DNA from: an uncultured Opitutia bacterium
GTDB lineage: Bacteria > Verrucomicrobiota > Verrucomicrobiia > Opitutales > Coraliomargaritaceae
Direction of reading: 5' to 3'
NCBI GenBank assembly: GCA_937136395.1
Contig: CAKZOI010000073.1
Coordinates: forward strand, 1 to 64,000
DNA: 64,000 nucleotides
Position 1 is the first letter of the stretch, and each line of letters starts with the position of its first letter. The notes under the pieces are model-generated. The model had not been told where the DNA came from and did no database searches. It saw nothing but the letters and a program-made list of their open reading frames with translations. Both the position numbers and the translations under genes were made by a program. Shown in pieces: positions 3,001-38,135 of the stretch.

Positions 3001-3489
3001 CCAATCAATCGGGATTGGACCCTCTCCTTCCCTAAAGGGTGGGATACGCCTGAAATGCTCAAACTCCCAAGCATAATACCCTGGTCTGAATTGAAGGAAC
3101 CCGCAGCCCAAGCATTTTCTGGCACCGCAAGCTATCGCAGCTCTATTGAATTCACAGCAATCCAGCAAAACCAACGTATCGTCCTCGACCTAGGTCGTGT
3201 AGGCGACATTGCCGACATACGCATCAACGATCAAAAAGTCACCACACTCTGGGCTCCACCCTTCCGAGCGGACATTACGCAATATTTGCAGGTCGGCGAG
3301 AATCAGATCGAGATTCGAGTCACCAATACTTGGCACAATCGACTGAGCTATGACGCTTCACTACCCAAGGCAAAACGTAAAACATGGACGTTCGCTGGCC
3401 CGAAGCCCAATATGCCCATGGAACCTGCAGGTCTTCTCGGCCCAGTTGTTCTTGATATCGGCACTATCGTTAAAATCCCCCAACCATAA
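40..3489 (+). CDS. GH106 family alpha-L-rhamnosidase, secreted
   Basis: The 1149-residue protein starts at a TTG codon and opens with a typical signal peptide (hydrophobic stretch at residues 5-20, cleavage near SQA). The mature start, running into the TWFHLISGNV and QLFHGRGRPWPG segments, matches GH106 enzymes, and the length is normal for that family (about 1000-1150). The C-terminal 130 residues form the jelly-roll sandwich seen at the end of GH106 proteins (IVLDLGRVGDIADIRIN, then VTNTWHNRLSYD). GH106 members remove alpha-L-rhamnose from complex glycans in the periplasm or outside the cell. The stop codon overlaps the start of the following sulfatase (TAATG), so the two are probably co-translated. 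The start is uncertain because no Shine-Dalgarno sequence is visible and only 39 bases precede it here. Confidence 0.87.
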   Translation: MLNKTFLSLLTFSLIPLASQATLKDQFKSPPQEAAPETWFHLISGNVSKPALTKDLEAISGAGIQGIQLFHGRGRPWPGVSPQITTLSENWDDMIEHVADETQRLDLQFTMQNCPGWAMSGGPWITPDKAMRHLIWSRQDINGGAPISISLAQPQPSKEDWRDYRDITVLAFPTPADDNGKHLKPIQIQSNRPDLAWQDLLDEKPKTNLNINAAGPYAWLELTFAQATHLRSIELQPIELLMKRRNFDPDAKVLLEAFVDGHWIAVGTRTIPRGTWQDRQPEYPLVLAFPDTVSQKFRLTFQSKHEMALTYLRLSSAARVHDWRGQAGYALRSLERGNIPSQDPATWVKAEHILDLTNKVDASGKLTWNAPEGNWTVLRFGHVNTGVKNKPAPPEATGFECDKLSPAGAEQHFAGYIGRLTENGGPADKGRLQGMLIDSWECYTQTWTPAMEGEFAERRGYALRNWLPALAGYVINDHDTSERFLRDWRKTISDMLVHNYFGRLGELARERGMQLYFETAIGDVSPGDILQYFGKADIPMCEFWQPNDPHWGGFEAKPIHPTASAAHIYGKPKVAAEAFTNIDHRWNDHPFSFKHLADFHFALGVNHLVFHTYTHNPLDHVPGTSFGNRIGSPFVRGQTWWLHMPLFTDYIARCQTMLQEGHPVADVLWYLGDDLNHKPPQSRPFPNGYAFDYLNHDVLINRIEVVDGALQTPEGVRWKVLWLPEEDCARLTLATLRRLQQLIQTGATVIGSAPKQNPSLHNLAESDSEFHSLVDALWGTDPESHGDRQIGKGRLLWGADLASTLKKLNILPDVIGTQASAWCHRRSGDTDIYFIAGDRQVPLSANLRFRAKGIPELWDPLTGTATNIATYTTDETHTTVPINLPAGGSTFVVFRPGEATPKFTRIDKGDTTLIDAYDYSRVEQTPRGSTTGLTPGEPLQPWVDNPRPQFKLLDDGTHLLAFENGNYRLTRSNGTSTHIEVTGSKQLPINRDWTLSFPKGWDTPEMLKLPSIIPWSELKEPAAQAFSGTASYRSSIEFTAIQQNQRIVLDLGRVGDIADIRINDQKVTTLWAPPFRADITQYLQVGENQIEIRVTNTWHNRLSYDASLPKAKRKTWTFAGPKPNMPMEPAGLLGPVVLDIGTIVKIPQP

Positions 3490-5719: not shown

Positions 5720-8700
5720 CTAATAGCGAATAATTGGGGCTTCTAGCAGACCTGCAGGGAAAAACTCATATCCTTCAGTATAATTCGACCCCGTGGTTCG
5801 AAAACTCACGGGCGCAGTAATAATACTCTCTTTGGGCACACGGTGAAATGGTCCAAATAAGTTTTGGCGAGTCAGTGTCAGTTCGATGCGCAGTAAAGGA
5901 CGATCCGTAGTTGCTTTCGATTGTGTTTGATAAGGCGGAAACGCGAGCATCTCCTCGAATTCGCCATGCCTCACTGACGCGCATGCTCCAGCAAACTTAG
6001 GTAATTCGCACATAAAACTGGCCCCTTCATCGATCTCCTGAAGCTGCTTTAAATAGCAGACGCGACCTGAATAAAATGGTAAACCTTGATCGACAAGGTC
6101 GCCGACATAAATATATTCTGGAAGCTCATCCAAGGTAAAGCGTCCCGCTTTTTTGGTAACTCCGAAAGCGCCAAATAAATAGATCGCTTCGATATCCGAA
6201 TCAGAACGAATTCGCGACTTAATGTTTAAAACATTTTTGCCATGACGCAAAGCGTCGATAGGCAGTGGTAGACACTTCAGTGCCACATCAATCCTCCACT
6301 TCGGGTCGCAAGGAATCACCACCGATTGCCCATTAAGGGAAATGTCCCAGCGATCAGGTTGCTCCATCACAAGCTCGAGTTCTGGAGGCAAAACGTTTAC
6401 ATCAAATTCAAACTCTAATTCCAAATCTGGCCCTATATCGGGTTTACCTTGATCACACCAAGGCTGCACCATAGTTCCGGTGCGCAGCGGCCAACCAAGC
6501 GACTCTCGTATTGCATCGTCAATTCGCAATACATCCTCTTGGTCGTGCCATGGACCACCATCTAACTTATAACGAGCACGATCCATCACGAGCGCATTTG
6601 ACTCGTCTAGTTCATAATCAAATGGTCCCTGAAGCTCTTGAGACGTATCGAAAGTCCGCTCCTTAGTTCGCTTGCTTGACACAGCAGACAAGGCATTCAC
6701 GCGAACACGGAAAACATGCTCTTGAAGTGGTTCAAAGTTTAGTGACCATTGTAAGCCTTCACTACTTGAGCGTGCATCTAAAGGATCAACGATACCAACA
6801 CGGCAATTCAACCGTTCGACAGAACCTGCTGCTGCGAGATTTACATACACGTTCTTGATTTCACTCTCCGTCGTATTGACTAAGGCGACGATCACATCGC
6901 CATTTTCTAGACGACGCACATGGCTAAGTATACCTGCGACCCCAACTCCTCGATTCAACTGCAAGAGTTGCTCACTGGAGCTACGAAGGGCAGCAATGAT
7001 CGATGTTTGATTCCAGCCCGAGCTGCCAATTTCATCCACAAAAGCTCTTGGCTCATTACTGAGTTCAGCATCAAGATATTCTGGACAAGGCCCCGCGAAG
7101 ACAACAGATCCTCCTGCAGCACTGAAGGCTTTCAAAATCTTCAAAGTCGTGCCGCGCAAAGTGTCCATTCCTCCTAAGACAATTGAACGGTAACGCATAT
7201 GACCTAGTCGGAAAAAGACTTCATCATCGACTAGCTCAACACTACCAAGACGATCCATTTGCTCTTCATCGCCATAATCAAAATCGATTTGAGCATCGAC
7301 CAGCCAATGATACATTGATGCAAATTTCTCCTCAATCGAATCGATTTGAGCCGAATCAGAGCCCAACCATTTAGACCAGCCTAAGTAGAACTGCGCCCAC
7401 AATGATTCGCCTGGATGAACGACTAGAACATCACAGTCAGGCTCCCCTTGTTGGAGCAACAGGTTGATTCTCGAAAAGTAATCTTCAACGTATTTGTATT
7501 CAGGATACCAAGCTGACTGATGTGAAATACTCGATGGGTAATCACGCTTGGATTCACCAGCCATCGAATACCAAGATAAATGATGACAGCGAAGATTAAT
7601 CCCCTGAAACGCCTGCCAATCGCCTATACGTTTATGACCATCGAAGCCCATATCCCAACCGGTGCAGCCATACAGCTCTGAAAGCGCGTAGGCTTTGCCC
7701 AGTTGGCGGGTTGATGAAACAACTTGTTTCGCCACCCAAAAAGATTCACAACGCTTAGACAAGACATCAATGCCAGGATAACTCATCGTTTCGTAATAAC
7801 GAAATAACGAACCAACTGGAACTGCTTGTGCAGCCAAAGAATCTTCGTGCAAGACATGGCCAGTAAGCTGCAAATTATTACTCTCACACCAGTTGGCACA
7901 TGGCTGTGCCCAATTTGCTATAAACAAGCGTTGTAACAGCTCCGCATACTGCCATTTCAACTTAGAAAGTTTCTGCCCTTTGTATTGAAAAAACAGCTCA
8001 GGCAAACGCCCTCGCAAGGACTCACCAAAATGCGATTCGAACGTATCGAATAACTTTTCAGTGTAAGGAATAGAATGTGAAGGTCGACTAGCGCCAGGCT
8101 GCTCTACAGCATCGCATAAGATAAAGCCACGGTGCGGTTCGTCTGTAAATATTCCCTTGATGGATTTACCGAAATATTCACCGCAATGCTGGCGATACTT
8201 CTCGTGCGTGGATTCGATAAACGCATCAGTCGCGTCGCGGTTCAATGTATCTAAGTAAGAACCACCATTGTAGAAACTATGGGAGGGGTGAATTTCTCGA
8301 TAGAAAACGAGCAACTGCTTCCCCTTTGGACAGCATTCAAACGAATGACTCTCAACAGATTCATAAGCCGCCAAATGTAGGTCCTCCAAGTCCACTAGAT
8401 GCGCTTCTATAAAATCATCTCTCGTAGGCCAATCGATAGCTTCTTCCGAAGAATACTGCTGGAGCACAATTGAACGCATTCGATATTCCTGCCCGGTAGT
8501 TACCATGCCCCCGGCAGTGCCACTCGGCCAACGGTCTTCATCGTATAACCACCCTTCGAGTCCCTGCTTGGAGCATTCTTCTGCACAAGAATTAATAAGA
8601 TCAAACCACTCTTCACCCAAATATTCATTCTTTAGGCCCGTGCGCGAATGCATAAATGCACCGCCCATACCCATCGTTTTCATGACGTCTATCTGGCGGA

Positions 8701-8857
8701 GCAGCTCGTCTTCCTTCAAATCTCCATTCCAAGACCAGAATGGCTTACCACGTAATTCAGCAGGCGGATTCAAAAACGACTCCATAAAGTCCCCCGCAGT
8801 GCCTCCTATAGTGCCCACGGCGTCGCTATCTTCGCTAGTATTACTGAATAATTCCAT
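5720..8857 (-). CDS. GH106-like glycoside hydrolase without signal peptide
   Basis: A 1045-residue protein starting with about 25 polar residues, then the segments FLNPPAELRGKPFWSWNGDL, MGMGGAFMHSRTGL and GWLYDEDRWPSG. These match large glycosidase-like proteins related to GH106: a TIM barrel, then beta sandwiches. A galactose-binding-like sandwich lies near the C-terminus (around residues 830-930). No signal peptide or lipobox is visible, so it may act in the cytoplasm on imported rhamnosides, unlike the secreted GH106 at the window start. DUF1080 follows 64 bases downstream. The overall family is fairly secure; the substrate is inferred from the neighbours. Confidence 0.72.
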   Translation of the reverse strand: MELFSNTSEDSDAVGTIGGTAGDFMESFLNPPAELRGKPFWSWNGDLKEDELLRQIDVMKTMGMGGAFMHSRTGLKNEYLGEEWFDLINSCAEECSKQGLEGWLYDEDRWPSGTAGGMVTTGQEYRMRSIVLQQYSSEEAIDWPTRDDFIEAHLVDLEDLHLAAYESVESHSFECCPKGKQLLVFYREIHPSHSFYNGGSYLDTLNRDATDAFIESTHEKYRQHCGEYFGKSIKGIFTDEPHRGFILCDAVEQPGASRPSHSIPYTEKLFDTFESHFGESLRGRLPELFFQYKGQKLSKLKWQYAELLQRLFIANWAQPCANWCESNNLQLTGHVLHEDSLAAQAVPVGSLFRYYETMSYPGIDVLSKRCESFWVAKQVVSSTRQLGKAYALSELYGCTGWDMGFDGHKRIGDWQAFQGINLRCHHLSWYSMAGESKRDYPSSISHQSAWYPEYKYVEDYFSRINLLLQQGEPDCDVLVVHPGESLWAQFYLGWSKWLGSDSAQIDSIEEKFASMYHWLVDAQIDFDYGDEEQMDRLGSVELVDDEVFFRLGHMRYRSIVLGGMDTLRGTTLKILKAFSAAGGSVVFAGPCPEYLDAELSNEPRAFVDEIGSSGWNQTSIIAALRSSSEQLLQLNRGVGVAGILSHVRRLENGDVIVALVNTTESEIKNVYVNLAAAGSVERLNCRVGIVDPLDARSSSEGLQWSLNFEPLQEHVFRVRVNALSAVSSKRTKERTFDTSQELQGPFDYELDESNALVMDRARYKLDGGPWHDQEDVLRIDDAIRESLGWPLRTGTMVQPWCDQGKPDIGPDLELEFEFDVNVLPPELELVMEQPDRWDISLNGQSVVIPCDPKWRIDVALKCLPLPIDALRHGKNVLNIKSRIRSDSDIEAIYLFGAFGVTKKAGRFTLDELPEYIYVGDLVDQGLPFYSGRVCYLKQLQEIDEGASFMCELPKFAGACASVRHGEFEEMLAFPPYQTQSKATTDRPLLRIELTLTRQNLFGPFHRVPKESIITAPVSFRTTGSNYTEGYEFFPAGLLEAPIIRY

Positions 8858-11621: not shown

Positions 11622-11938
11622 TCAACTGACTGTCGATCTCGGGGTTGGTCTACCACGGTCCCGATACGTATTCAAAAATAATACGTATTGCCAGTCTTGA
11701 TACATCTGCAGCGCATCACTGCCAAAGTTTCACTCAGCACCCAGTTCAAGGGCATTTCAAGGCACCCCTTTATCATCAACGATTGACACCGTATATTTCA
11801 TTTCTGACTGGTCATGCCAATACTCCTGCCCACTGCCCACCTGAGCCTTCGCTGGCATCGGAAGCACTGCTAATAAAAAAGACACACTGGCCAACCATGC
11901 TACGGACCAGCGACTCAGAATGGAATATCTCGAATCAT
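11622..11938 (-). pseudogene. Remnant of a small secreted protein with two in-frame TGA codons
   Basis: Immediately after the GH105 gene, an ATG overlaps its stop (TAATG). One base out of that frame runs a clear signal peptide (SVAWLASVSFLLAVLPMPAKA) and then a mature start QVGSGQEYWHDQSEMKY. The same frame continues for about 99 codons to 11622. It is broken only by TGA at 11757-11759 and at 11730-11732, and keeps protein-like sequence afterwards (SDALQMYQDWQYVLFLNTYR). Both TGA codons sit where Trp would be plausible. No ATG, GTG or TTG opens the frame before the leader. I read it as a translationally coupled gene inactivated by a start-proximal indel and two nonsense changes. The family is unknown. 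Confidence 0.5.
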
Positions 11939-13086
11939 TAATGCTCGGATGCCATTAGCCATTTATAGACTTCAGAGCCAGCAGCCAGAAAGGCCCCAGT
12001 GCCATAAACCTCAGTTCGATCTGACCAAGCAGCACCGGGCTCTGCCCCAATCGGCTGCACGTAGCCAAGCATGCCCTCTTCGTTGATGCAGCTTACCAGT
12101 GCATCCCACGCTTTCAGCACTGATGGCTCATAAGTTTCAGCATCCAACAGTTGATTGTTCAATCCCCATGCGAGCCCGAAACAGTAGAAGCCAGTGCCAC
12201 TGGTTTCTGGCGTCGGATACCTGTCGGCTTCGAGCAAACTCATTGCCCAAAAACCCTCATCCGTCTGTAACTGAATTAAGCGCTCTGCCATTTGCAGATA
12301 CAAAGCTTTGAAGAAATCGTAATGAGGCGAGGTCTCTGGTAGCTCATTGAGAATCAATGCCAAGCCTCCAAATACCCAACCATTACCGCGAGACCAAAAG
12401 ATTTTACTACCGTGACTCCTCTGAATAAAAAAACGTGAATCTCGAAAAAACAACTGTTCTTCTTCATCAAACAAAAACTCCGTCGAGGCGCGGTATTCAG
12501 CTGCCATCCAATCCAAATACTTAGGATCTTCTGTGAGTGCAGACAATTTCGCCCAGACCGGTGGCGCCATGAAGAGCGCATCACACCAATTCCAACGCTC
12601 CTCAGATCCTCTACCACCATATATCAATGGCAAGGAAGATGGCTCCGCCATGATTTGATCAAATTGCGCACGTGTAGGTGCGATCATCTCAACATTTGCG
12701 TATTTCTCATATAAACCCAGATACAATTGACCAATACAATGATCATCCGCGTGATAAAAGCGCTCCTCTCGTAACTTCCACCGACGCTCCGCGCCGACCT
12801 CCTTGAGCCATTCATAATACGTATCATCGTCGGCAATCGCTGCCCACTTCAACATCCCAACAAAAAGAGCCGCTGTAGGCCATTCATCACTCACGTAGGG
12901 ACGTTTGCGATGTTTTGTATCAAACACGTCGTCAATATGCGCAATCTGCCAATCCGCGACACGTGCCATCACAGTCGTAACTGAGCCGGCTATCGGTCGA
13001 TCCAAGCCATATACAGCGATACTTAGAAGTAAACAGACAGTGACCAGTAACGCCTTCTTTATAAAGAATTGGTGAGAAAAAAACAT
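11938..13086 (-). CDS. GH105 unsaturated uronyl hydrolase, secreted
   Basis: A GH105 enzyme of about 382 residues from the ATG at 13086, which gives a good signal peptide (FFIKKALLVTVCLLLSIAVYG). The frame is open to 13137, but the extra 17 residues spoil the leader. The (alpha/alpha)6-barrel motifs are present: YHADDH and RWNWCDALFMAPPVWA carry the two conserved aspartates, and FWSRGNGWVFGGL follows. The family hydrates the 4,5-unsaturated uronic acid left at chain ends by polysaccharide lyases, releasing it as a keto acid. A second GH105 lies divergently at 13313, and they are clearly paralogous. The broken small gene follows directly. Confidence 0.9.
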   Translation of the reverse strand: MFFSHQFFIKKALLVTVCLLLSIAVYGLDRPIAGSVTTVMARVADWQIAHIDDVFDTKHRKRPYVSDEWPTAALFVGMLKWAAIADDDTYYEWLKEVGAERRWKLREERFYHADDHCIGQLYLGLYEKYANVEMIAPTRAQFDQIMAEPSSLPLIYGGRGSEERWNWCDALFMAPPVWAKLSALTEDPKYLDWMAAEYRASTEFLFDEEEQLFFRDSRFFIQRSHGSKIFWSRGNGWVFGGLALILNELPETSPHYDFFKALYLQMAERLIQLQTDEGFWAMSLLEADRYPTPETSGTGFYCFGLAWGLNNQLLDAETYEPSVLKAWDALVSCINEEGMLGYVQPIGAEPGAAWSDRTEVYGTGAFLAAGSEVYKWLMASEH

Positions 13087-13312
13087 AGCTATAAATGTAT
13101 TTTGATAAAATGATTTTCTAGGACTTGCCATATACATGAATCGTTACCTATACATAGCATTTCAACTAAATAATTTATAATGATAAGTCTTACTTTTACA
13201 CAGATCGTCTCACATGCCCTAGCAAGGCCGCCCAGTGATTAAATGCATGCAGAAAGCAACAAGAACTCCAGCATACTGAACTTTACGAAATCACCAATCC
13301 CCTAAGCAATCA
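13087..13312. promoter_or_regulatory. Divergent promoter region between two GH105 genes
   Basis: About 200 AT-rich bases separate the divergent GH105 genes, so promoters for both must lie here. AT-rich stretches near 13165-13200 could supply -10 boxes, but I cannot assign -35/-10 pairs or an operator with confidence. Confidence 0.3.
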
Positions 13313-14428
13313 ATGAAAGACCTCAAAGCAATCCTAGCGTTCAGCGCGTCGCTATTCGTATCAGCCACCACGGCACAAGCAGACGTATTTTCACAAAACG
13401 AGATCATCAATCGTATGAAGAAAGCGGCTGATTGGCAAATAGCCAATCCAGCCCCCTATCATCCACTTGAGTGGCATGGTGCACCCTTCTACATGGGGCT
13501 TTCTGACTTATCCGAAGTCACAGGAGATCCAAGCTATTTCGATACTGTAAAGGCAATGGGCGATGCACATGATTGGAAAATTCGAGATCGCCCCTATCAT
13601 GCTGATGACCACGCTGTCGGACTCTCTTACCTCAAACTTTACGAGATCCACAAAGATCCAGAAATGATCGCGTCGGTTAAGAAAGAATTTGATTGGATCT
13701 TAGCCAACCCACCTGAAAAAACCATCGTTGGCAAAAATGGAGTCGTCCGCGAACGCTATAATCGAGAACGATGGAATTGGTGCGATGCACTTTACATGGC
13801 TCCTCCAGTGTGGGCAGGGCTGTCCGCGATAACTGGCGATGAAAAATACAACGACTACATGGTGCAAGAGTGGAAAAAAGCCCACGAATGGTATTTCGAT
13901 GAAGAAGAAGATCTCTATTTCCACGACAAGCGTGACATCGTCAAAGTCTCTCCAGGCGGCAAAAAAGTCTTCTGGGCGCGTGGCGATGGCTGGGTCATCG
14001 CTGGTCTTGTTGAAGTGCTACAATACCTACCACAAGATCATCCCGATCGCCCCTATTTTGAGTCGATCTTCAAGCGTATGTCCGCGAAGCTACTCACGAT
14101 TCAAAAAGAAAACGGCACCTGGGCACCCAGTCTACTTGATCCACTACACCCACCGCAGGACGACACCAGCGGCACCGCATTTTACGTCTATGGCTTCGCG
14201 TGGGGCATCAATAACGGCCTACTAGATGCAGCCACTTATGAAACAGCGACCCGTAAGGGATGGCAAGCGCTCTGCGAACGACAAAAACCAAGCGGTCGCC
14301 TGATCAACACACAACCTGTAGGCGGCTACCCTGTAGCTTTTGATCCAGATACAACAGCTATATTTGGCATGGGTGGTTTCATCAGCGCAGGCAGCGAAAT
14401 GTATAAATTGGTGCAGTTAAAAAGGTAA
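13313..14428 (+). CDS. GH105 unsaturated uronyl hydrolase, secreted
   Basis: 371 residues with a signal peptide (cleavage near AQA at residue 23). Conserved GH105 segments are ADWQIANP, PYHADDH (D98/D99), RWNWCDALYMAPPVWAGL, FWARGDGWVIAGL and GFAWGINNGLLD. The two conserved aspartates in the HADD and WCDA motifs are intact. It should remove unsaturated glucuronyl or galacturonyl residues from lyase-generated oligosaccharides. With the sulfatases and rhamnosidases this suggests ulvan-like or rhamnogalacturonan-like oligosaccharides. It is divergent from its paralogue at 11938-13086. No clear terminator follows; a small hairpin lies at 14485-14504. Confidence 0.92.
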   Translation: MKDLKAILAFSASLFVSATTAQADVFSQNEIINRMKKAADWQIANPAPYHPLEWHGAPFYMGLSDLSEVTGDPSYFDTVKAMGDAHDWKIRDRPYHADDHAVGLSYLKLYEIHKDPEMIASVKKEFDWILANPPEKTIVGKNGVVRERYNRERWNWCDALYMAPPVWAGLSAITGDEKYNDYMVQEWKKAHEWYFDEEEDLYFHDKRDIVKVSPGGKKVFWARGDGWVIAGLVEVLQYLPQDHPDRPYFESIFKRMSAKLLTIQKENGTWAPSLLDPLHPPQDDTSGTAFYVYGFAWGINNGLLDAATYETATRKGWQALCERQKPSGRLINTQPVGGYPVAFDPDTTAIFGMGGFISAGSEMYKLVQLKR

Positions 14429-14605: not shown

Positions 14606-16051
14606 TTAAAACTTAGACTGTGATGGATCATTGAACTTTTTCGGACGCTGATCTTCTGGATAGTCATCCAGATACTTTGCTAAGCGCTTTTTCATCTGAG
14701 ATAATAGAGATGCATATTCTGGATTTTTAGCGAGATTGGTCAACTCATCGGGGTCCTTTTGGAGGTCATACAAACAATAGTAAGGTGCATCTTCTACCGT
14801 GTAATAACTCGCAAGTTTATAGCGCTCACTGCGCACACCATACCAATTGTCGTAGGCGTAGAACGCATGCTCAGTGAAGATACTGTCGCGCCAATTCGTC
14901 ACCGCTTGCCCATTGAACCATGGTAAGAGCGACTGCCCTTGATAGGATCTTGGGATTCTCGCACCAGCTAACTCTAAAAAGGTGGGTGCAATATCGAGAT
15001 TCGTCACTAAGCCATCGACTTTAGTGCCACGCACTGACTCTGGAAGACGCGGATCATAAATAACCAGAGGCACACGCAATGATTGCTCATAATGATTCCA
15101 CTTTCCAGCCGTGCCTCGATCTCCTAGTAACAGTCCATTGTCGGCTGTGTAAACAATGATCGTATTGTCGGTCAATCCTTCAGCTTCAAGAGCTTCGACA
15201 ATACGGGCGATCGCAAAATCAATGCCGGTAATCATACGATAATACGCACGCATATTGGTCTGATACTTTTCAGGTGTGTCCCAACGCCAAAAATAACGAG
15301 TTCGACTCAACCCAACTTCCTCTTGGAGAAATTCTGGCATCGCTTTGAAATGCTTCCTATCACCGAGGCGCGGACCGGACGTCAGGTCGAGGTCTTCATA
15401 CATGCCATCTGTAGACTCTGGCCACTGAAAGTGAAAGCCTGGACGATGATCTTTATCTTCAGCGTGCGATGCGTTAAAACTAACCGACATGCAGAATGGT
15501 TGCCCCGCCTTGTTACTTTTAATGAACTCAATCGCAGCATCAGCGCACAAGTCCGTCTCATGACGTAAGCTCCCGTCTGGCATTTTCTTCAAATACGGAT
15601 CACGACCGATCGTCTTAAAGAAATCGAATAGCTTCTGCGGTTTCGGCCCAGCGTGCTTGAAGCCATACTTACCCGCAAATCCAACACGATAGCCGGCCTG
15701 TTTCAGCAAAGCAGGATAACTATTAGACATCTGTTGCTCAACCACAGGTTTCTCGCCAAAATTATAACCATGTGTGCGCTGCGAGAGCCCCGTCACTAAG
15801 CTCGCGCGCGTCGCAGCACAGATCGGCACTTCGCAAAATGAATTGTTAAAGAGTAACCCTTTTTCGGCCAATCGATCAATTGTCGGCGTTTGAATGTCCT
15901 CGTTTCCATAGCATCCGAGGACGTCGCTCCGCTGGTCGTCGGCAAGTAGGAAAACGATATTGGGCTGCTTCGCAGCTTGCACGTTGAGCTGCAAAAGAAG
16001 TAGCAACCCGAGCACAAGACCGCGGCGTAAAGGGGTAAAGACTTGTATCAT
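14606..16051 (-). CDS. Family S1 sulfatase with CAATR motif, secreted
   Basis: 481 residues with a strongly hydrophobic leader (GLVLGLLLLLQLNVQA). The core starts PNIVFLLADDQRSDVLGCYG. The formylglycine motif is C78-A-A-T-R, a CxAxR variant in place of CxPxR, in the context CEVPICAATRASLVTGLSQR. It is closely similar to the sulfatase at 27759-29168, which carries CAASR. Each is next to a GH78 gene, so the two modules look duplicated. The start is 8 bases after the GH78 stop, indicating one transcript. The specificity is unknown. Confidence 0.9.
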   Translation of the reverse strand: MIQVFTPLRRGLVLGLLLLLQLNVQAAKQPNIVFLLADDQRSDVLGCYGNEDIQTPTIDRLAEKGLLFNNSFCEVPICAATRASLVTGLSQRTHGYNFGEKPVVEQQMSNSYPALLKQAGYRVGFAGKYGFKHAGPKPQKLFDFFKTIGRDPYLKKMPDGSLRHETDLCADAAIEFIKSNKAGQPFCMSVSFNASHAEDKDHRPGFHFQWPESTDGMYEDLDLTSGPRLGDRKHFKAMPEFLQEEVGLSRTRYFWRWDTPEKYQTNMRAYYRMITGIDFAIARIVEALEAEGLTDNTIIVYTADNGLLLGDRGTAGKWNHYEQSLRVPLVIYDPRLPESVRGTKVDGLVTNLDIAPTFLELAGARIPRSYQGQSLLPWFNGQAVTNWRDSIFTEHAFYAYDNWYGVRSERYKLASYYTVEDAPYYCLYDLQKDPDELTNLAKNPEYASLLSQMKKRLAKYLDDYPEDQRPKKFNDPSQSKF

Positions 16052-16059
16052 AATTATAA

Positions 16060-18843
16060 CTATTCTTTCCAGTGAGACTTAAAGTTGTAATGGCCAGACT
16101 GTAATTTGTAAATAGCTCGATCCTTTTCACAATCAAGAAACTCAACACCTTGCGCTGTCTCGGCCATTTCACCTCCCTCAAGCACTGGTTGACCTTGTGC
16201 CGTCGGCACATGCACAGTCGCAGTGGTATTAGGCGGTATCGATAGCTCCCAATAGAATACTCCAGATTCACTGCGCCAGTGACTTTTAATCAAACCATAA
16301 GGTGAAGTGTGGTCGACCTTCGCCCACGCTAATTCGGCATACCCATGGGGTTTCAAATGCATCATCTTAAAGGCCGGTGAGGACGGCGTCATACCCCCGA
16401 TCGATTCATGGAACCACGCAGCAAAGCCACTTTGCATCGGGTGATTGAGTGATCGACCAGAGAGTGTCTCTACGTGCAATGTATCGCGAAACAGTTCTGG
16501 CCATGTCGTGAGACCTAAATCCAAAGCATGCGAATAACTCGGAAACTCCGATCGTGTCATTGCCGAAATCGCGACATCCGTGTAGCCATATTGGCTCAAC
16601 TTCGTGTAAAGCGGACGCGCACCATGAATGCCGACTCTGGCATGCCCATCGTGACGCTCCACAACTTGACTGCGTAAGGCATCGCCAACACGCTCGGCGG
16701 CCCCTTTCGGTGCCAAGCCGAAACGAAGTGCCACAGCATTTGCTGTTTGCGAACCGTAACAACCTTCATCCGCATCATAAAATTTACGATTGAAGGCGGC
16801 TTTCGTTTGATCCGCCAGTTGACGATATTGCGCGGCGTCTTCTGGCAATTCCAACTCATCAGCAAAAGTCGCCATAATCTCCAAAGTGGCAAAGTAGAAG
16901 GCTGTCGATGTCAGAGGAACTGGGCTTTCCATATACTTATTTCCATTGGGTGGACACCAGTCGCCGTAGCCTTGATGAACGATCCCATCCTCACTTAAAT
17001 CAGCCACATACGCCATCCAATCTTTCAAATGATCGTAGTGACGCGTAAACAAATCCGTATCACCGTAGTATTGATACAAATACCAAGGTAGCAAAACATA
17101 GGCGGAACCCCAGTCTGGTCGTGCTTCTTGGCATAGCCGCTTACCCACAGCAATGTTACAGGGTATCCCGGGCGTGGCTGGACGTTTCCAATAGGTAATG
17201 CCTCCCCGCCCAAGTGTCGTTTCAATATCGTCGACAAATTTCGTCCAAAATTGAGCCGTTCCATAATTTAAAATCACTGTTTCGCCAACAGCATGCGCAT
17301 CCCCCAGCCAAGCACATTTCTCGCGATGCGGGCAATCCTCTAAGATGCTGTGCATGTTATCCTCAATCGTCCAAATAGAGGTTCGGTAAATCTGATTTAA
17401 TAATTCATTCGAACACTCAAAATTGCCACGCGATGGGACATCAGTGCGCACAAAAACCGCCTGGATAAAATCTTTCGAGGGCGGTTCGAGTAAGCCTGTT
17501 ACCTCGATGTATCGAAAACCGTGATACGTAAAGCGAGGCTCCCACACTTCAACCCCCTCTCCCTTACAAATGTAAATATTTGTTTGCTTTAAACCAGTTG
17601 CATGAGTCCCAGTCGTCGACATATCGATACCTGTTCCATCTTTATTCAAAATTTCAGAACTGTTCATCGACAATTGTGTGCCGCGTGGTGCTTTGATTTT
17701 AATACGTGGCCAGCCTGAAATATTTTGCCCGAAATCAAAGATCCATTGACCGTCTGCCCCCTGAATGATTTCCGCTACGGGCAATGTCTTTACAGCTCGG
17801 ATCGGTGGTATTTGCTGCGCTTCGATCCGAACTGTCGGTCCCTGCACCTGCTTGGCGACTTGCCAGCCGCTATCGTCATACCCGACACGATTCCAACCTA
17901 TACGCTCTAAACGAGCATCATAGGTTTCGCCCGCATACACATTGTCATACACGATTGGCCCCGTATTCGCTTTCCATAAATCATCAGTCACCAGCGTCTC
18001 AGTGCTACCATCGACGTAATCGATAACCAACATGGCCATGACTAGCGGTTCACCATAGCCCAGCCCTGGTGCATTGAACGCCTGATTTTGCCCATAAAAG
18101 CCATTACCTAGCGTGACTCCTGCGGCATTTGCTCCTGTTTCAAGTTTCTGTGTAATGTCATGCACCACGTAGAAAGCACGTACATCGTAGGAAGTTTGGC
18201 CGGGCTCCAGCACAGCATCACCGCATTTTTCCCCATTAATATACAACTCATTATAGCCTAGCCCGCATACGTATGCGCGGGCACGTAAAACATCAGGACC
18301 TACGGTAAATTCGCGACGCAAGAGCGGCGACGGATGCGCGAGTGCCATTCTCGGCTTGTCCATTTGGAATGTGTGCACCGAGCGTGCCTTGAGAACTGAC
18401 TCGCGTGTATCTTTAGCCAGTTGAATCCAGTTCGCACCGCCCCAATCGTCACTCGAAAGAAGTCCCATTTCCCAACTTGCGGGTTCGCTAATTGATCGTC
18501 TGCCTTGCGGTCCCCATACCTCAACTATCCAGAAGCAAATCTGACGTGACTGCAGCACTGCCCCCGCATACGGCACATGTAAACTTTGGGATGATTGAAT
18601 TTTACCAGAATCCCACAAATCAGCCTTCCCCTCCATCAAGAGAGTCTCTGAACTGGCCACACGTATGCGGTAAGCTGCTTGTTGATAGCCGCGCTCGTCG
18701 CTAACACTTTGCCAACTTAAGCGCGGTGCCTCAGCTTCGATACCTATCGGATCGGTGCGGTATTCGCAAAGCAGATTTGTCACTGCAGCATTAGCCGAAA
18801 CGAGACACGTGCAGACGATTAAAAAGAGGCGAATAATTAGCAT
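16060..18843 (-). CDS. GH78 alpha-L-rhamnosidase, secreted
   Basis: 927 residues with a signal peptide (MLIIRLFLIVCTCLVSANA). The domain order is the GH78 one: an N-terminal Fn3-like domain (PRLSWQSV), a lectin-like domain (YVCGLGYNELYINGEKCGD), a sandwich ending IFDFGQNISGWPRI, the (alpha/alpha)6 barrel and a C-terminal sandwich. The catalytic-acid motif is DCPHREKCAWLGD. The Glu in LGLTTWPELF is the likely base. It would release rhamnose from rhamnosides after desulfation. It lies between two sulfatase genes (gaps of 12 and 8 bases). Unlike most genes here it has a strong Shine-Dalgarno sequence. Confidence 0.93.
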   Translation of the reverse strand: MLIIRLFLIVCTCLVSANAAVTNLLCEYRTDPIGIEAEAPRLSWQSVSDERGYQQAAYRIRVASSETLLMEGKADLWDSGKIQSSQSLHVPYAGAVLQSRQICFWIVEVWGPQGRRSISEPASWEMGLLSSDDWGGANWIQLAKDTRESVLKARSVHTFQMDKPRMALAHPSPLLRREFTVGPDVLRARAYVCGLGYNELYINGEKCGDAVLEPGQTSYDVRAFYVVHDITQKLETGANAAGVTLGNGFYGQNQAFNAPGLGYGEPLVMAMLVIDYVDGSTETLVTDDLWKANTGPIVYDNVYAGETYDARLERIGWNRVGYDDSGWQVAKQVQGPTVRIEAQQIPPIRAVKTLPVAEIIQGADGQWIFDFGQNISGWPRIKIKAPRGTQLSMNSSEILNKDGTGIDMSTTGTHATGLKQTNIYICKGEGVEVWEPRFTYHGFRYIEVTGLLEPPSKDFIQAVFVRTDVPSRGNFECSNELLNQIYRTSIWTIEDNMHSILEDCPHREKCAWLGDAHAVGETVILNYGTAQFWTKFVDDIETTLGRGGITYWKRPATPGIPCNIAVGKRLCQEARPDWGSAYVLLPWYLYQYYGDTDLFTRHYDHLKDWMAYVADLSEDGIVHQGYGDWCPPNGNKYMESPVPLTSTAFYFATLEIMATFADELELPEDAAQYRQLADQTKAAFNRKFYDADEGCYGSQTANAVALRFGLAPKGAAERVGDALRSQVVERHDGHARVGIHGARPLYTKLSQYGYTDVAISAMTRSEFPSYSHALDLGLTTWPELFRDTLHVETLSGRSLNHPMQSGFAAWFHESIGGMTPSSPAFKMMHLKPHGYAELAWAKVDHTSPYGLIKSHWRSESGVFYWELSIPPNTTATVHVPTAQGQPVLEGGEMAETAQGVEFLDCEKDRAIYKLQSGHYNFKSHWKE

Positions 18844-18851
18844 GAGTCGGA

Positions 18852-18857
18852 CTCCTT
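18852..18857 (-). promoter_or_regulatory. Strong ribosome binding site for the GH78 gene
   Basis: AAGGAG overlaps the TAA stop of the upstream sulfatase and lies eight bases before the ATG at 18843. It fixes that start and suggests termination-coupled reinitiation. Confidence 0.75.
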
Positions 18858-20412
18858 ACTGCCGAAGCTTGGTCGGTTTAAGTTTCGCCTTGCCGATCAA
18901 TTCTGCCTTATACTTTGCAGGATCAAAATTTGGATTTGGTAACGGCACAACAGTCTTCGCATCTTGAAGGTGCGCCTCGATCATACGATCCATATCTTGC
19001 ACGCGCTCAGGATACATACTAGCGAGATTGGTCGTCTCCCCGACATCGTCCTTGAGATTGTATAGGAGGTAGTCATGCGCGTCGTTTTCACCACCGTAAA
19101 ACAAGCGAATCAGTTTCCAGTCGCCACTATGCACCGCGATCGACTCTGGCAACCAATCTGGAATGGGTGGTGAGTGCGGAAAATACGTGATGATTGATTG
19201 ACGATCCAGATCGCCCCCTTTTAGAGCGGGAGCGATATCAACGCCATCGACGTGATGATCGGCAGGAATTTCAATCCCCATTCCATTGAGTAAAGTCGTA
19301 TAAAAGTCCGAAGTTTGAATCATGGCATCGCTGCGAGTGTTGGCTTCAGCAACACCTGGCCAAACAACGACACATGGCACGCGAATACCACCTTCATAGA
19401 TATTGGCTTTACCGCCACGCAAAGGCGCATTGCTCGTCGCAGTAGTTCCTTCGACTTGATTATACATATTACCACCATTGTCGGAGACAAAAACGATAAC
19501 TGTATTATCCGCTCGACCAGTCGCATCTAAGGCATCCAACAAGGTGCCAACCGCGTCATCCAACGAATGCACCATCGCCGCATAAATCGCGCAGCGTTGT
19601 GGGCTATCTGGGTCGACCTTGCCACGGTAGTATTCTACCAACTCCTCTTTCGCATCGAATGGAGCATGCACTGAGAACTGCCAAAAGTTTAAGAAAAATG
19701 GCTGATCACTCGGTAATGCTTTAAGCCATGTGACCGCCTCTTGGGCCATACGGTCTTCGATATGCTCTTTGGGGTAGTTTTCCTTGAAGTTTTTATATCT
19801 CCATGGCGCAACGAAATACCCAGCAGGTGCAGGGCCCGGATGATGTGGGATATCTATATCAAAGCCGTGTTCAAGCGGACTGTAAGGCTCTGGGCCGAGG
19901 TGCCACTTGCCAAAGTGAGCGGTCGCATAGCCAGCGCCTTTAAACAATTTACCCAAAGTCGGCAGTGCAGTATCCAAACGTGTAGCCGTCTTGACCCCCG
20001 TGGCTTTTTTATTCGCCGCGGCCTTTGGCATCGTAGATGCCGTCAAGCGCACCGGCTTGAGGTGATGCTGAGGGGCGGTTGAGCCATGTCTCGCCACTGT
20101 TTGCCCCGTCAGAATACTGGCGCGCGTGGGCGAGCATAACGGACTGTTCGAATATGCTCGACTAAACAGCATACCGCGCTGACTCAAGCGTTCGAGATTT
20201 GGTGTTTCATACAGTTCTGTATGCCCATAAAGTGTCGTATCAGCCCAGCCAAGATCGTCCGCTAGAATAAAGACGACATTCATCTTCTTGGCGTCTTCGG
20301 CATTTGAAAGCGAAGGAACTCCTAAAGCGACCGCTACGCATACTAATTGAATAAAGGCAGACCGTAATGATCTGATCGATTTTGAAAAATTTAAGCTCAT
20401 CGTCATATACAT
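18856..20412 (-). CDS. Family S1 sulfatase, secreted
   Basis: About 518 residues from the ATG at 20412; further ATGs lie at 20406 and 20400. The frame opens at 20463, but the extra 17 residues are not leader-like. The signal peptide spans the hydrophobic run ending VPSLSNA. The core has VVFILADDLGWAD and the maturation motif C-S-P-T-R, then HFGKWHLG, a conserved active-site Lys/His segment, and FVSDNGGNMYNQVEG. The PHHPGPAPAGYFVAPW segment is like that in the two sulfatases at 41550 and 43491, so these three belong to one subfamily. It is central in the tolB-unknown-sulfatase-GH78-sulfatase run. Confidence 0.92.
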   Translation of the reverse strand: MYMTMSLNFSKSIRSLRSAFIQLVCVAVALGVPSLSNAEDAKKMNVVFILADDLGWADTTLYGHTELYETPNLERLSQRGMLFSRAYSNSPLCSPTRASILTGQTVARHGSTAPQHHLKPVRLTASTMPKAAANKKATGVKTATRLDTALPTLGKLFKGAGYATAHFGKWHLGPEPYSPLEHGFDIDIPHHPGPAPAGYFVAPWRYKNFKENYPKEHIEDRMAQEAVTWLKALPSDQPFFLNFWQFSVHAPFDAKEELVEYYRGKVDPDSPQRCAIYAAMVHSLDDAVGTLLDALDATGRADNTVIVFVSDNGGNMYNQVEGTTATSNAPLRGGKANIYEGGIRVPCVVVWPGVAEANTRSDAMIQTSDFYTTLLNGMGIEIPADHHVDGVDIAPALKGGDLDRQSIITYFPHSPPIPDWLPESIAVHSGDWKLIRLFYGGENDAHDYLLYNLKDDVGETTNLASMYPERVQDMDRMIEAHLQDAKTVVPLPNPNFDPAKYKAELIGKAKLKPTKLRQ

Positions 20413-20475
20413 TTGTGCGCTTGATCCTGATAGGGTTCCCAAATGTAACAACCGTATTATCAAGCAAAGATACCC

Positions 20476-21456
20476 CTATGGATTAATGAGGTCGTATGAA
20501 TCGTCTGCATATAGCTGGATCAGGCGATCCAAGCCCTGCACGATTTCAGATTGATTACCAACGAGTAGCCAATAGCGGTATCGAAAAGTCGACTTAGGGC
20601 GCAGATCAATTCGCACAACGGGTGCGACATGCATGCAAGGGCCACCATATGGGTCATCGCTCGTCGCATCCACATGCGGGCCAAAATTCCACAGCTCCGA
20701 AGACGATGGACTATATACGGCAACGCCCTGTCCAGACTTCTCAAAAAAGGCCATGGCTCGATACGGCGTTTTCGCTCGCCCCCATGGAGGACCAGGAGGC
20801 TGGTCCTCTACACGCCATTGCCCCTGACCCAAGTAAGTTTTTACAGATTCGAAATTACGGGTAAAATAACACGCTGGCACCTCTTGGGGGCTGAGTCCTG
20901 TCACACCCCAAGCATCATGGTCCTCACGCTGGCAAACCAACTCACATGTCACTCTGATCGCATCGGGCATGCCTGCTTCGAAGTCAGTCCATTGACGCAT
21001 TACGGCATTGGCCTCTTCGTTGGGCATATCCCATAATTTCGGCACCGTTTCCGCATGCAAAGTGCCATCTTCAAGTCGTTCAAACACAGTGACTCGCGAC
21101 CAAGTAGTCAGCCCACCTCCTTGTATTGGATTCCACGACCATGGAGACCAGTGCTCACCCTGCCCTTCAGCTAAACGATCCCGGCGATTGCCTGCGTAGT
21201 AAGACTGCTGTATCAGACGCCCAGGATCATAAAGGTTGACCATATTCCGCGGATATTCGGTCCACGACAACCATGTGATCGCCCCACCCTTGGACCGATC
21301 AATTCCGAGCGTCACACGCTCGTTCCGCATCAAAAGTAAATCCGCATTTTCCGCTTGAATCGCTGCTGTCGCTAACAGGCAAACAGCTGCCGCCACTCGA
21401 GCAAGGTGCTTTAGCACTAATCTATTTCGAGTAATCAAGGCCACACGATGGATCAA
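20476..21456 (-). CDS. Unrecognised secreted beta-rich protein, candidate carbohydrate-active enzyme
   Basis: 326 residues from a TTG start overlapping the upstream stop (TTGA). A later GTG (V14) gives a neater leader, LKHLARVAAAVCLLATAAIQA. The mature protein starts LLLMRNERVTLGIDRSKGGA and is rich in Trp, Tyr and aromatic-Gly turns (HWSPWSWNPIQGG; WNFGPHVDATSDD). This resembles galactose-mutarotase or beta-supersandwich proteins, folds used by many lyases and hydrolases. I do not recognise a named family. Its place in a transcript with two sulfatases and a GH78 suggests a role in the same polysaccharide. It could be an epimerase-like, binding or cutting protein. Confidence 0.75.
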   Translation of the reverse strand: MIHRVALITRNRLVLKHLARVAAAVCLLATAAIQAENADLLLMRNERVTLGIDRSKGGAITWLSWTEYPRNMVNLYDPGRLIQQSYYAGNRRDRLAEGQGEHWSPWSWNPIQGGGLTTWSRVTVFERLEDGTLHAETVPKLWDMPNEEANAVMRQWTDFEAGMPDAIRVTCELVCQREDHDAWGVTGLSPQEVPACYFTRNFESVKTYLGQGQWRVEDQPPGPPWGRAKTPYRAMAFFEKSGQGVAVYSPSSSELWNFGPHVDATSDDPYGGPCMHVAPVVRIDLRPKSTFRYRYWLLVGNQSEIVQGLDRLIQLYADDSYDLINP

Positions 21457-22652
21457 TAAACAAAGCTAGCTGACGAGGCATCACCAAAGTTCGGATTGTG
21501 CAGTGGGCTAACTTTGCCAGTCTCCGAATCAAGTAACATAAGACGAGTCTTCCCGCTGGTGCGTTGGGTGAAGACCAAATGGCGACCATCATTCGTCCAT
21601 GAAGGTTCAACCGCAGAGTTAGTTACAGATGTCAAAATCTTGCTACTGCGCTTATTCGAATCATACAAAGCGATTTGAAAGCCGCCACTGACTGCCGCAG
21701 TAAACGCAATCAGGTTTTCATGCACAGGATTCCACACAGGCTCTGAACAGTAACTGCTCACATTAGTCGGTATACGACGCATCGGCCCACCATTTGCAGA
21801 AATCTCATACAATTGAGGTTTACCAGGAGCATCCGAGCTAAACACCAACCGACGACCGTCCGGCGACCAACTAGGACTCGTATCTAAATTCTTATTATTC
21901 GTTAAGCGCTTAGGTCTCTTGCCTTGCGAGTTTGCAACGTAGATCTCGGAATTACCAGTGCCGGAAAGAGCCATCGCGATGCGACTACCGTCTGGACTAA
22001 AGGTGCCGCCCGTGTTCGCTCCTTTAAAGGTCGCAATGGGCTGCTTACTGCCCGTCGCAAGGTTGACCATATAAATGTCCGGAAAGCCTGTTTTGTGATA
22101 TGTGGTATACAGAATACGTCGACCGTCCTTTGACCATTTGGGTCCAGTCAATAGAGAGCGATCACGTGTGAGCGGACGCACCTGATTGAACAACAGGTCG
22201 CTAATATACAATTCGGACACGCCACGCTGTTTACCGACAAATGCGAGTTTACCCGCAAAGAACCCCTTGGTGCGTAAGGTCGCCTCAACTGCAAGATCAC
22301 AGGCACGCAGCACTGCATTTTGCTGGTCACGACCACGAACCGTGCGCCTGAGTTGCTCTTGCAATGGCTTTCCTGAACTAATCACGATCTCAGCAGAATC
22401 ACTGCCAGCAGGCTCTACCTTGAAAACAAAGCCTGCGTTCGCCGGTGTTGTTACAGAATAACCTCCATGTATACTAAACGCACGACTCACCAATTTTGCG
22501 ACTGCGGGATCCGAACTTTCTACTGCGATGGCAAGTTGCCCCTCACCTATTGTTCCATACACAGGACCTCCATCAATTATCTGTGCTAGCACAGCGCTGG
22601 AGAACATCGAAAGTGAGGCTACAGCTATAAATAGAAATGTAAACAATCGCAT
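21453..22652 (-). CDS. TolB-like beta-propeller protein, exported
   Basis: About 399 residues from the ATG at 22652 (the frame opens at 22688), giving the leader RLFTFLFIAVASLSMFSSAVLA. A TolB-type N-terminal domain is followed by WD40-like/PD40 repeats with the hallmark phrases GPKWSKDGRRILY, GGTFSPDGSRIAM, SPSWSPDGRRLVF and EPSWTNDGRHLVF. Classical TolB works with Pal at the outer membrane. No pal or tolA is adjacent, so this could be true TolB displaced from its cluster or a propeller protein serving the polysaccharide genes. Its end overlaps the next gene by four bases. Confidence 0.82.
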   Translation of the reverse strand: MRLFTFLFIAVASLSMFSSAVLAQIIDGGPVYGTIGEGQLAIAVESSDPAVAKLVSRAFSIHGGYSVTTPANAGFVFKVEPAGSDSAEIVISSGKPLQEQLRRTVRGRDQQNAVLRACDLAVEATLRTKGFFAGKLAFVGKQRGVSELYISDLLFNQVRPLTRDRSLLTGPKWSKDGRRILYTTYHKTGFPDIYMVNLATGSKQPIATFKGANTGGTFSPDGSRIAMALSGTGNSEIYVANSQGKRPKRLTNNKNLDTSPSWSPDGRRLVFSSDAPGKPQLYEISANGGPMRRIPTNVSSYCSEPVWNPVHENLIAFTAAVSGGFQIALYDSNKRSSKILTSVTNSAVEPSWTNDGRHLVFTQRTSGKTRLMLLDSETGKVSPLHNPNFGDASSASFVY

Positions 22653-22725
22653 GGCTATCAAGTAGTCCGATGCAATCAACAATCGCAAACGAAAATCGCT
22701 ATTGTGAATAAATTGATTCGCGCGA

Positions 22726-24422: not shown

Positions 24423-25045
24423 CTAGTTAGTCGCTTCAATTTGGAACTCCAACTCAGCTGTTGATGGGTTTGAATCTGGCGGACAACCGTATGCAAAATA
24501 AACAGTATCCCCCACCTTCAAGCGACCAAGCGGAACATTAAATGCAAAACTTCGTAGCCTTTAACTGCATCCGAGCCAATGAGGCGTTCATTGACATAAA
24601 TACTGATTGGTGATGGCGGCCTTTCGACTCCTCGCAATACACGCTTGATCTGGCTATTAACAATTCGAGCTTCACCTGATTCACCTTGTTGAACTGTATA
24701 AGCAATGATGACATAATGAGAAATCTGATCTGTAGATTTTTCCGCTGGCCTTCCTGGAAGGATTGATTTTTTGGACAACTTGATCCATTCTTCATTCCAA
24801 TCAACAGGAGCATCACCTTTAGGCTCCACTGAGTAGTAATATACATCTTGAGCACTAAAGAGATCCTCATAGGCTGCCGAATTTCCCAAAGACACACCTG
24901 TGGGATTCCACTGATAGGACCAACCTGACTTCGCAATTGGGGAATAGTCTGCCACAAAGTCGGCGATGACTTTCGCTTGCATATTAACTGTTAACAAAAA
25001 AGTAGCGATTACCACTGTCGCTTTAAGTAGTCGAGTCGTCTTCAT
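24423..25045 (-). pseudogene. Secreted beta-sandwich protein disrupted by a frameshift
   Basis: The first 175 codons give a leader (residues 1-24, ending NMQA) and a mature protein starting KVIADFVADYSPIAKSGWSY, then SHYVIIAYTVQQGESGE and ISIYVNERLIGSDAVKG. After KG, near 24560, the frame ends as junk (YEVLHLMFRLVA). A neighbouring frame continues as FAFNVPLGRLKVGDTVYFAY and EFQIEATN to a TAG at 24423-24425. Joined, the product is about 206 residues and ends as such secreted domains normally do. The likely event is one indel in GTTAAAGG. It is a real lesion or a sequencing error. The function is unknown, perhaps glycan binding; it follows a GH78 gene. Confidence 0.62.
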
Positions 25046-37145: not shown

Positions 37146-38135
37146 CTAGTTAATTTTCACTGTCTCGTAGAAACGAATATAATCAATTTCGAACGGCGCT
37201 TGACTATTTATGGGGTCCAAACGGAAGTAATTGACTGGACTCACGGTCCAGTCAGAAACGTTACTCATATCTAAAAGATAGGTGTGGAAATAAGAGTCGT
37301 CCTTCAAGATGATATCGACTTTATGCGCATCACCGCTTGAGTTAGCTCCTGTCCGATAAAAAACAGACGCCGTTCCGCCCACAGCACTCGGCACTCGCAT
37401 TCTGATTTCTATATACTTGTAGATGCCGGTATCAATTGACGAGAGTCCAGTATTTTTAGCCAAATATAAAATCATCTTAGGGTCGCTACTAGTTGGATTC
37501 CCATAAAAGAGCCCGTCGGAGACACCACTTACGATCTCCTTTCCCTCTTTCACATCTAAATTAGAACCAACGAAGTAATTATTCACACCACCCCGAGTGG
37601 AGTTGCTTTGATCAAACTCAAACCCTATTGTGCGCCCACGATCCAACATAATATAATCGACAAAATAATTGCCCTCATCGATCTCTCCATCAACGGGATC
37701 GAGGCGTAAGCCTGTCCCAGATTTATGTATACCTGTAAGTGTGACTTGACGCGTCACCATCGAACCATTGATCGCATACTTGAAAGGCCCCACAGTGCTC
37801 ATCGGCAATGGATAGACACTACCATTTCTCAACTTGCCGGCAAATCTATGGCGAATACGCACATTGGGAAAATCTGCAAAATCGAGCCCACCAGCATATC
37901 CATCAAAATACAACTGCGGATCAATAGAATCCGAGATTTCGTAACTACCGACACCTCTCGAACTCGACTTAAACGAAATACCATTCAATGACTGGGAAGA
38001 CGGATCTCCACTACTGAAATTCTCCAAGAACGATGAATTCCTAGATTCAATATCTACATAGGTAGTCGCACCAGATAGTGTTGCGCCAATCGCACTAGCA
38101 ATGGCAAAGGTTGTATATAATTGAGTTCGTTTCAT
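37146..38135 (-). CDS. Secreted two-module jelly-roll protein, likely glycan binding
   Basis: 329 residues with a leader ending LSGA (residue 23). Two similar beta-sandwich modules are visible, about 30-170 and 185-326. The second ends VSPVNYFRLDPINSQAPFEI then DYIRFYE, typical of secreted carbohydrate-binding sandwiches. The C-terminal modules of the sulfatase at 41550 end similarly (VRMDPSRGPGAVELENIRLV). No catalytic motif is seen. Its ATG overlaps the stop of the upstream sulfatase (ATGA), so it is the last gene of the four-sulfatase run. It probably tethers glycan near those enzymes. Confidence 0.72.
   Translation of the reverse strand: MKRTQLYTTFAIASAIGATLSGATTYVDIESRNSSFLENFSSGDPSSQSLNGISFKSSSRGVGSYEISDSIDPQLYFDGYAGGLDFADFPNVRIRHRFAGKLRNGSVYPLPMSTVGPFKYAINGSMVTRQVTLTGIHKSGTGLRLDPVDGEIDEGNYFVDYIMLDRGRTIGFEFDQSNSTRGGVNNYFVGSNLDVKEGKEIVSGVSDGLFYGNPTSSDPKMILYLAKNTGLSSIDTGIYKYIEIRMRVPSAVGGTASVFYRTGANSSGDAHKVDIILKDDSYFHTYLLDMSNVSDWTVSPVNYFRLDPINSQAPFEIDYIRFYETVKIN

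Follow-up and report, generated by a model that had tools for sequence, protein, structure and literature searches.

We found that the gene at 20476-21456 belongs to a widespread family of probably secreted proteins that have the predicted fold of GH174. By its predicted activity, the protein most likely hydrolyzes rhamnosidic linkages in sulfated polysaccharides. The gene lies in the window, the whole stretch of 64,000 nucleotides that was analyzed. The predicted fold is that of GH174 but the gene is set among rhamnose- and sulfate-removing enzymes, suggesting that the protein probably cuts sulfated rhamnose-rich polysaccharides. In its specific form, our proposal is a GH174-like glycoside hydrolase that cuts such a polysaccharide and so supplies the sulfatases and rhamnosidases encoded beside it, with predicted activity, substrate and catalytic residues. 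We consider this form an even call.

The gene and the neighboring features that bear on its role are as follows.

20476..21456, minus strand: GH174-like secreted-protein gene, 326 aa, TTG start, start uncertain
21352..21456, minus strand: putative Sec signal peptide, residues 1-35, assigned by eye, shorter with a later start
21453..22688, minus strand: TolB-like beta-propeller gene, 4-nt overlap with the 5' end of the GH174-like gene
18856..20463, minus strand: S1 sulfatase, directly downstream of the GH174-like gene
16060..18843, minus strand: GH78 alpha-L-rhamnosidase, in the same run, next after the sulfatase at 18856
14606..16051, minus strand: S1 sulfatase, downstream of the GH78 gene at 16060
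40-3489: GH106, from the family scan of the window
5720-8857, minus strand: GH106-like gene, weak GH106 match
11938-13137 and 13313-14428: GH88/105 genes, from the family scan of the window

The TolB-like gene, the GH174-like gene, the sulfatase, the GH78 gene and the second sulfatase follow each other on the same strand, with gaps of 8-12 nt from the GH174-like gene on. This spacing suggests that the run from the TolB-like gene to the sulfatase at 14606 forms one transcript. A sequence-only reading had described an ORF of ~326 aa that overlaps the TolB-like gene and precedes a sulfatase-GH78-sulfatase series, and this ORF and gene order were confirmed. It had also taken the product to be exported. 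The N-terminus, read by eye, agrees with this: a hydrophobic segment followed by AIQA/E at ~residue 35 forms a candidate export signal, and the product looks exported. The possible starts TTG1, GTG5, TTG7, GTG14 and GTG21 are all located upstream of the hydrophobic segment, and no obvious Shine-Dalgarno sequence was seen at any of these five candidates, both judged by eye.

The wider window is rich in related functions. It contains GH78 genes at 16060, 25131, 29452 and 45454 and at least eight S1 sulfatases. The product of 5720-8857 (1045 aa) matches GH106 weakly (Pfam E 6.8e-10; NCBIfam E 1.9e-13) and is putatively a strongly diverged GH106-like protein. The domain scan of the window covered the products of 30 ORFs, out of 42 that reach 150 aa. 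In Puniceicoccaceae and Akkermansiaceae genomes, GH78 and GH106 rhamnosidases are surrounded by sulfatases, according to the available text of PMC8857213, and the gene content of the window fits this pattern. Three further products in the window were observed. Those of 37146-38135 (minus strand), beside a sulfatase, and 24518-25045 (minus strand), beside a GH78 gene, are exported-looking proteins with no Pfam match. The 1192-aa product of 48638-52216 (minus strand) has no Pfam or PDB match. Its N-terminus resembles a type IV prepilin leader by eye, so it is probably no enzyme of the locus.

Sequence searches with the product of 20476-21456 gave no family assignment. Pfam returned nothing at E≤1, NCBIfam a single meaningless match (E 0.14), and the PDB sequence search nothing meaningful (best E 1.9). 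Over 68 members of the family, no convincing Pfam match was found; the best stray match had an E value of 0.0099, and the stray weak matches were to non-PL models. The GH78 and GH106 family domains (PF17389 and PF17132) matched neither the window protein nor the 68 members. No mutarotase model matched the window protein in NCBIfam, or the window protein and the 68 members in Pfam. PL family models in Pfam and NCBIfam, which cover the PL families that have such models, did not match the window protein. Pfam, NCBIfam, PDB and the fold search gave no clear match to a non-catalytic family. Since the copies searched hold no match, Pfam and NCBIfam would leave the family unannotated. The earlier guess of a new family is upheld in that neither database assigns one. 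As judged from its sequences, the GH174-like family is real and widespread, and it is new relative to the Pfam and NCBIfam copies searched.

The predicted structure revealed a close relationship in fold to GH174. AlphaFold modeled the mature protein from residue 36 with confidence (pLDDT 97, pTM 0.94), and the model bears out the aromatic-rich all-beta composition noted earlier. The first two VIA-align rows are the GH174 endo-1,3-fucanases 8jd7_A (Z 25.7; rmsd 3.2 Å over 265 aligned residues) and 9k1g_A (Z 24.2; rmsd 2.8 Å over 256), and the rows after them have Z scores of 17.7 and below. Foldseek likewise ranks the two GH174 chains first, with E values of 9.4e-11 and 1.8e-08. A distant relative, L089 (~25% identity), gave a model with a pLDDT of 84. 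GH174 is again first in VIA-align (Z 22.8 and 21.7 versus 18.7); in Foldseek its lead is slight (E 1.1e-09 versus 3.6e-09), and 9k1g is outside the first 50 rows. The two models are not fully independent, because many alignment rows are common to both. The GH174 catalytic-domain fold was found in both predicted models, and the family appears to use it. The sequence-only reading had suggested a mutarotase-type or supersandwich fold and proposed structure prediction with a fold search. The confident model and its matches to GH174, PL26 and aldose mutarotases support such a fold, with GH174 hydrolases first and PL26 lower. The fold is that of a supersandwich (PL26, Z 17.1), and GH174 is clearly closer.

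The likeness to GH174 (Fun174A and Fun174Sb; 8jd7 and 9k1g) extends over nearly the whole domain of the predicted fold. However, the identity is 12%, and the mature window protein has ~291 aa, compared to 449-510 residues in the GH174 chains. A phmmer search with the window protein against PDB sequences gave no link to GH174 at E≤10. Profiles of the whole family, the divergent branch and the motif region gave no bridge in hmmsearch at E≤10 either. The chains 8jd7 and 9k1g are present in the PDB structure library and were assumed to be represented among the PDB sequences as well. CAZy families rest on detectable sequence similarity to characterised members. By this usual criterion the family is not a member of GH174, because the sequence profiles give no link at E≤10. 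We tentatively propose a new GH family, a structural sister of GH174 made up of endo hydrolases of sulfated rhamnans. GH174 acts on sulfated deoxy-hexose polymers in the available text of PMC11943901, and the family described here probably does the same.

Other proteins share the broad fold. The galactose mutarotase-like 3mwx and 4bze (Z 16.0) are mutarotases by PDB title, whereas the window protein looks exported, is encoded within a polysaccharide locus and has an invariant set of its own. The PBCV-1 capsid chains 8h2i of a chlorovirus are alike in fold (Z 17.7) at ~8-10% identity, and are capsid components. In BFVD, the chlorovirus protein A7K9Q9 is also alike in fold (Foldseek E 9.5e-09), and the top rows M1H8F2 and A7RAY6 are nameless. 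This chlorovirus likeness mainly shows the wide use of the fold. A non-catalytic sugar-binding or mutarotase-like accessory protein would be compatible with a fold common to aldose mutarotases (Z 16.0) and non-enzymes, the YidC periplasmic domain among them. We regard such a role as very improbable. The dense invariant polar set of the family seems to exceed the usual needs of binding, and its likely secretion speaks against an intracellular mutarotase role.

This invariant set was found in an alignment of 68 members, which contains 60 of the 82 loci L009-L090, L002-L008 and the window protein. It omits L057, L084 and L086 (stop in the matched frame), the incomplete L052 and L090, and a further 17 loci removed for thinning. 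Nineteen columns are invariant. Four motifs stand out in the window gene.

21196..21246, minus strand: motif N71-x2-N74-x2-D77-x-G79-R80-x2-Q83-x-S85-x-Y87, with N74, D77, G79, R80, Q83, S85 and Y87 in 68/68
21115..21150, minus strand: motif W103-x-P-W-x-W-N109-P-x-Q112-x-G114, with N109, Q112 and G114 in 68/68
21028..21042, minus strand: motif P139-x2-W142-D143, with P139 and W142 in 68/68 and D143 in 62/68
20872..20886, minus strand: motif Q191-E192-x-P194-A195, with all four named residues in 68/68

Only two acids, E192 and D77, are kept in every row; D53 is kept in 64 of 68. The key residues tabulated for Fun174A are D119, E120 and E218 in the available text of PMC11943901. The invariance at G79-R80...Y87 is partly due to selection, because the scan of GTDB genomes was keyed on the pattern GRx[IVL]Q[QM]S[YF]Y. 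N74, D77, N109, Q112, W142, Q191 and E192 fall outside this pattern. The seven rows L002-L008, found without the pattern, retain both its positions and the invariant residues outside it. L109, L111, L113 and L115, found by profile, also retain the positions of the pattern.

Gene neighborhoods in other genomes point to rhamnose. We counted genes within 10 kb of 29 members in 22 of 30 genomes, a non-random sample of those with member coordinates, with distances worked out by hand from the listed coordinates. For the expected values, all matches in each genome were counted, and a split match contributes more than once. GH106 is located within 10 kb of at least 9 of the 29 members, compared to 0.87 expected by random placement. 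The corresponding numbers are at least 7 versus 0.97 for GH78, and 7 versus 0.12 for orthologues of the sulfatase at 18856 (E≤1e-139). Among the matches listed, a GH29 fucosidase is near none of the 29, versus 1.12 expected. These counts are a strong qualitative contrast and not literal probabilities, because random placement ignores the clustering of polysaccharide genes and ancestry. The GH106 pairing is mainly found in Bacteroidota (8 of 9 cases), and these placements are not independent since the Bacteroidota cases share ancestry. Of the eight planctomycete members in the set of 29, none has a listed GH106 match closer than 10 kb; the nearest is 10.6 kb away. Eight genomes are outside the test. 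In one of them (L019, Pirellulaceae), a GH106 relative is ~3.5 kb from the member; at L011, L030, L034, L049, L071, L078 and L084, none was seen in the comparison of loci. Rhamnosidases are near members and, among the matches listed, fucosidases are not, and this strong qualitative contrast makes the surroundings point to rhamnose.

These counts also bear on an endo-fucanase like GH174, acting on sulfated fucan. A GH174 endo-1,3-fucanase has the closest fold. Endo-fucanase families are GH107, GH168, GH174 and GH187, plus GH141, in the available text of PMC12786026. However, the family has no sequence relation to GH174, and its genomic partners are rhamnosidases and not GH29 fucosidases. No GH29 is within 10 kb of the 29 members among the matches listed. 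Six Flavobacteriaceae genomes have a GH106 within 10 kb of the member: G134, G135, G136, G138, G139 and G455. GH29 (E≤1e-20) is absent from three of them, G134, G139 and G455. The other three have 15, 10 and 1 matches, not necessarily in the order given. Fucan specificity was set aside as the first choice on the GH29 scan, and we now regard it as quite unlikely.

The rhamnose-cleaving hydrolase that we favor is placed in a telling context in Algibacter (L063), where the locus nearly spells out a rhamnose pathway. The run consists of L-rhamnose isomerase-like, FGGY kinase, class II aldolase, L-lactate dehydrogenase-like, aldehyde dehydrogenase, permease-like and sulfatase-like genes, the GH174-like family member and GH106. 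The isomerase-like gene matches TIGR02629 with an E value of 4.2e-151, under its cut-off. Cut-offs are passed by the aldehyde dehydrogenase (NCBIfam), the kinase and aldolase (Pfam) and GH106, and the other names are best guesses. In a Planctomycetaceae locus cut by the contig end (L052) and a Lentisphaerae locus (L037), the member is fused in frame behind a sulfatase domain with CSPTR. The sulfatase part of the former is 59% identical to the window sulfatase at 18856. Members at L073, L074 and L087 carry T9SS sorting tails and the L002 member a ricin-type lectin domain, and extracellular action on a polymer is therefore likely.

Some contexts differ. In gut Alistipes and Rikenellaceae (L078 and L084), single member genes are located beside ruvC-like and other housekeeping genes by eye, and no rhamnosidase or sulfatase match was found near them. 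Genome G449 contains the family and no GH78, GH106 or GH29 at the thresholds used. These cases and the GH106-free planctomycete neighborhoods suggest that the family may have more than one substrate. Two other observations concern partner proteins. In Hyunsoonleella jejuensis and Algibacter pacificus (L076/L101 and L109), the member domain is fused behind an amidohydrolase-like domain, beside GH106 and GH78. This domain was recognized by Pfam Amidohydro_2 in L076 and by its sequence in L109, and is a possible lactone- or ester-cleaving partner. DUF5722 proteins are found near members at L035:3631-7131 and L061:6373-8418; these uncharacterised proteins may belong to the same pathway.

The sequence-only reading had put the protein forward as the lyase partner of GH105, a role that the data do not favor. 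Such a polysaccharide lyase would cleave a rhamnose-uronate chain by beta-elimination and pass the unsaturated ends to the GH88/105 enzymes encoded at 11938-13137 and 13313-14428. The window does contain these two genes, and the scan of 30 window proteins showed no lyase above its Pfam cut-off. In the TolB-like propeller, 27 residues match Pectate_lyase22 below the threshold (E 1.7e-4). A supersandwich-type fold is common to PL26 exo-rhamnogalacturonan lyase and heparinase III-type lyases, and the invariant residues (Tyr, Arg, Asn, Gln and Glu) could be compatible with lyase activity. However, the nearest solved folds are GH174 hydrolases. The shared beta-supersandwich of PL26 (5xqg; Z 17.1, 245 aligned) is a much weaker match, and at 881-896 residues the chains of PL26 are far longer. 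Uronate-acting lyases normally need a partner of the GH88/105 type. No such pairing was seen for the family: relatives of the two window GH105s are found in none of the 82 loci around members, and none of the 29 members is within 10 kb of a GH88/105 gene. The nearest of 33 genome-wide matches is ~10.9 kb away (G134), and at E≤1e-20 no match exists in 9 of the 22 genomes. Given the rarity of GH88/105, finding none nearby is unsurprising by itself. Because a uronate lyase normally needs this partner and none is near members, a lyase is disfavored. It was set aside as the first choice on the loci and whole-genome GH88/105 scans, and we judge it unlikely.

The mode of cleavage was considered separately. 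The neighborhood data fit equally well an exo-enzyme that removes terminal rhamnose, sulfated or otherwise capped. The core domain is compact (291 aa) and two members are fused to sulfatases, as could be expected of such an enzyme. The GH174 relatives, however, are endo-acting in the available text of PMC11943901, and several rhamnosidases are already present in the loci. An exo-enzyme seems improbable to us.

We infer that the favored protein is an exported and catalytically active glycoside hydrolase, of GH174 fold and in a family without assignment. It would target the alpha-L-rhamnosidic (6-deoxy-hexose) linkages of a sulfated rhamnose-rich algal polysaccharide, probably cleaving within the chain (endo). 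The resulting fragments would be degraded to L-rhamnose by the sulfatases and the GH78/GH106 exo-rhamnosidases of the locus. Carboxylates in a putative conserved cleft would perform the catalysis, with E192 and D77 as candidates.

Verrucomicrobiota have been proposed as specialist consumers of rhamnose-/fucose-rich sulfated polysaccharides (available text of PMC8857213). These polysaccharides are hard-to-degrade carbon of algal blooms. Exo-rhamnosidases and sulfatases alone would probably open a long sulfated chain slowly, and an endo-rhamnanase of this kind is not described in the titles and abstract openings of the literature consulted. If our proposal is correct, the family would provide the missing depolymerising step between sulfatases and exo-rhamnosidases in Verrucomicrobiota, Planctomycetota and marine Bacteroidota. 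It would also serve as a marker of rhamnan breakdown and as a means of producing rhamnan oligosaccharides, and rhamnans would join fucans as targets of the GH174 fold.

The window gene is single-copy in its own genome. A match is present in 8 of 134 related genomes, its own included, and absent from the two same-genus genomes listed, which makes it an accessory gene. Across the phylum, 33 of 387 sampled genomes carry the family, again with its own included. GTDB representative genomes contain at least 571 stretches that encode a relative (571 of 582 pattern-matched stretches listed were confirmed by tblastn), and a chance ORF was ruled out on this result. At the Bacteroidota loci L062-L088, a range that includes one Calditrichaceae record (L073), the identity is 31-36%; this conservation and the 19 invariant columns over 68 members also indicate that it is not a chance ORF. 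By record title, most of the best 80 of the 571 belong to Verrucomicrobiota, Planctomycetota and Bacteroidota, while Lentisphaerae and Calditrichaceae account for one each. Some of the titles look wrong (e.g. the Klebsiella title of L024). Weak matches in the Flavobacteriaceae genomes G376, G180, G174 and G337 look like chance on reading. Searches of plasmids and phages by tblastn gave no relatives at E≤0.01.

The distant relative L089 is found in a transposable Mu-like phage segment (L089:4899-5879; IMG/VR UViG_3300010162_000027). It has a lipoprotein-like N-terminus and is flanked by portal/head/neck genes and a DNA-transposition gene. It is a putative glycan-acting cargo gene carried by the phage.
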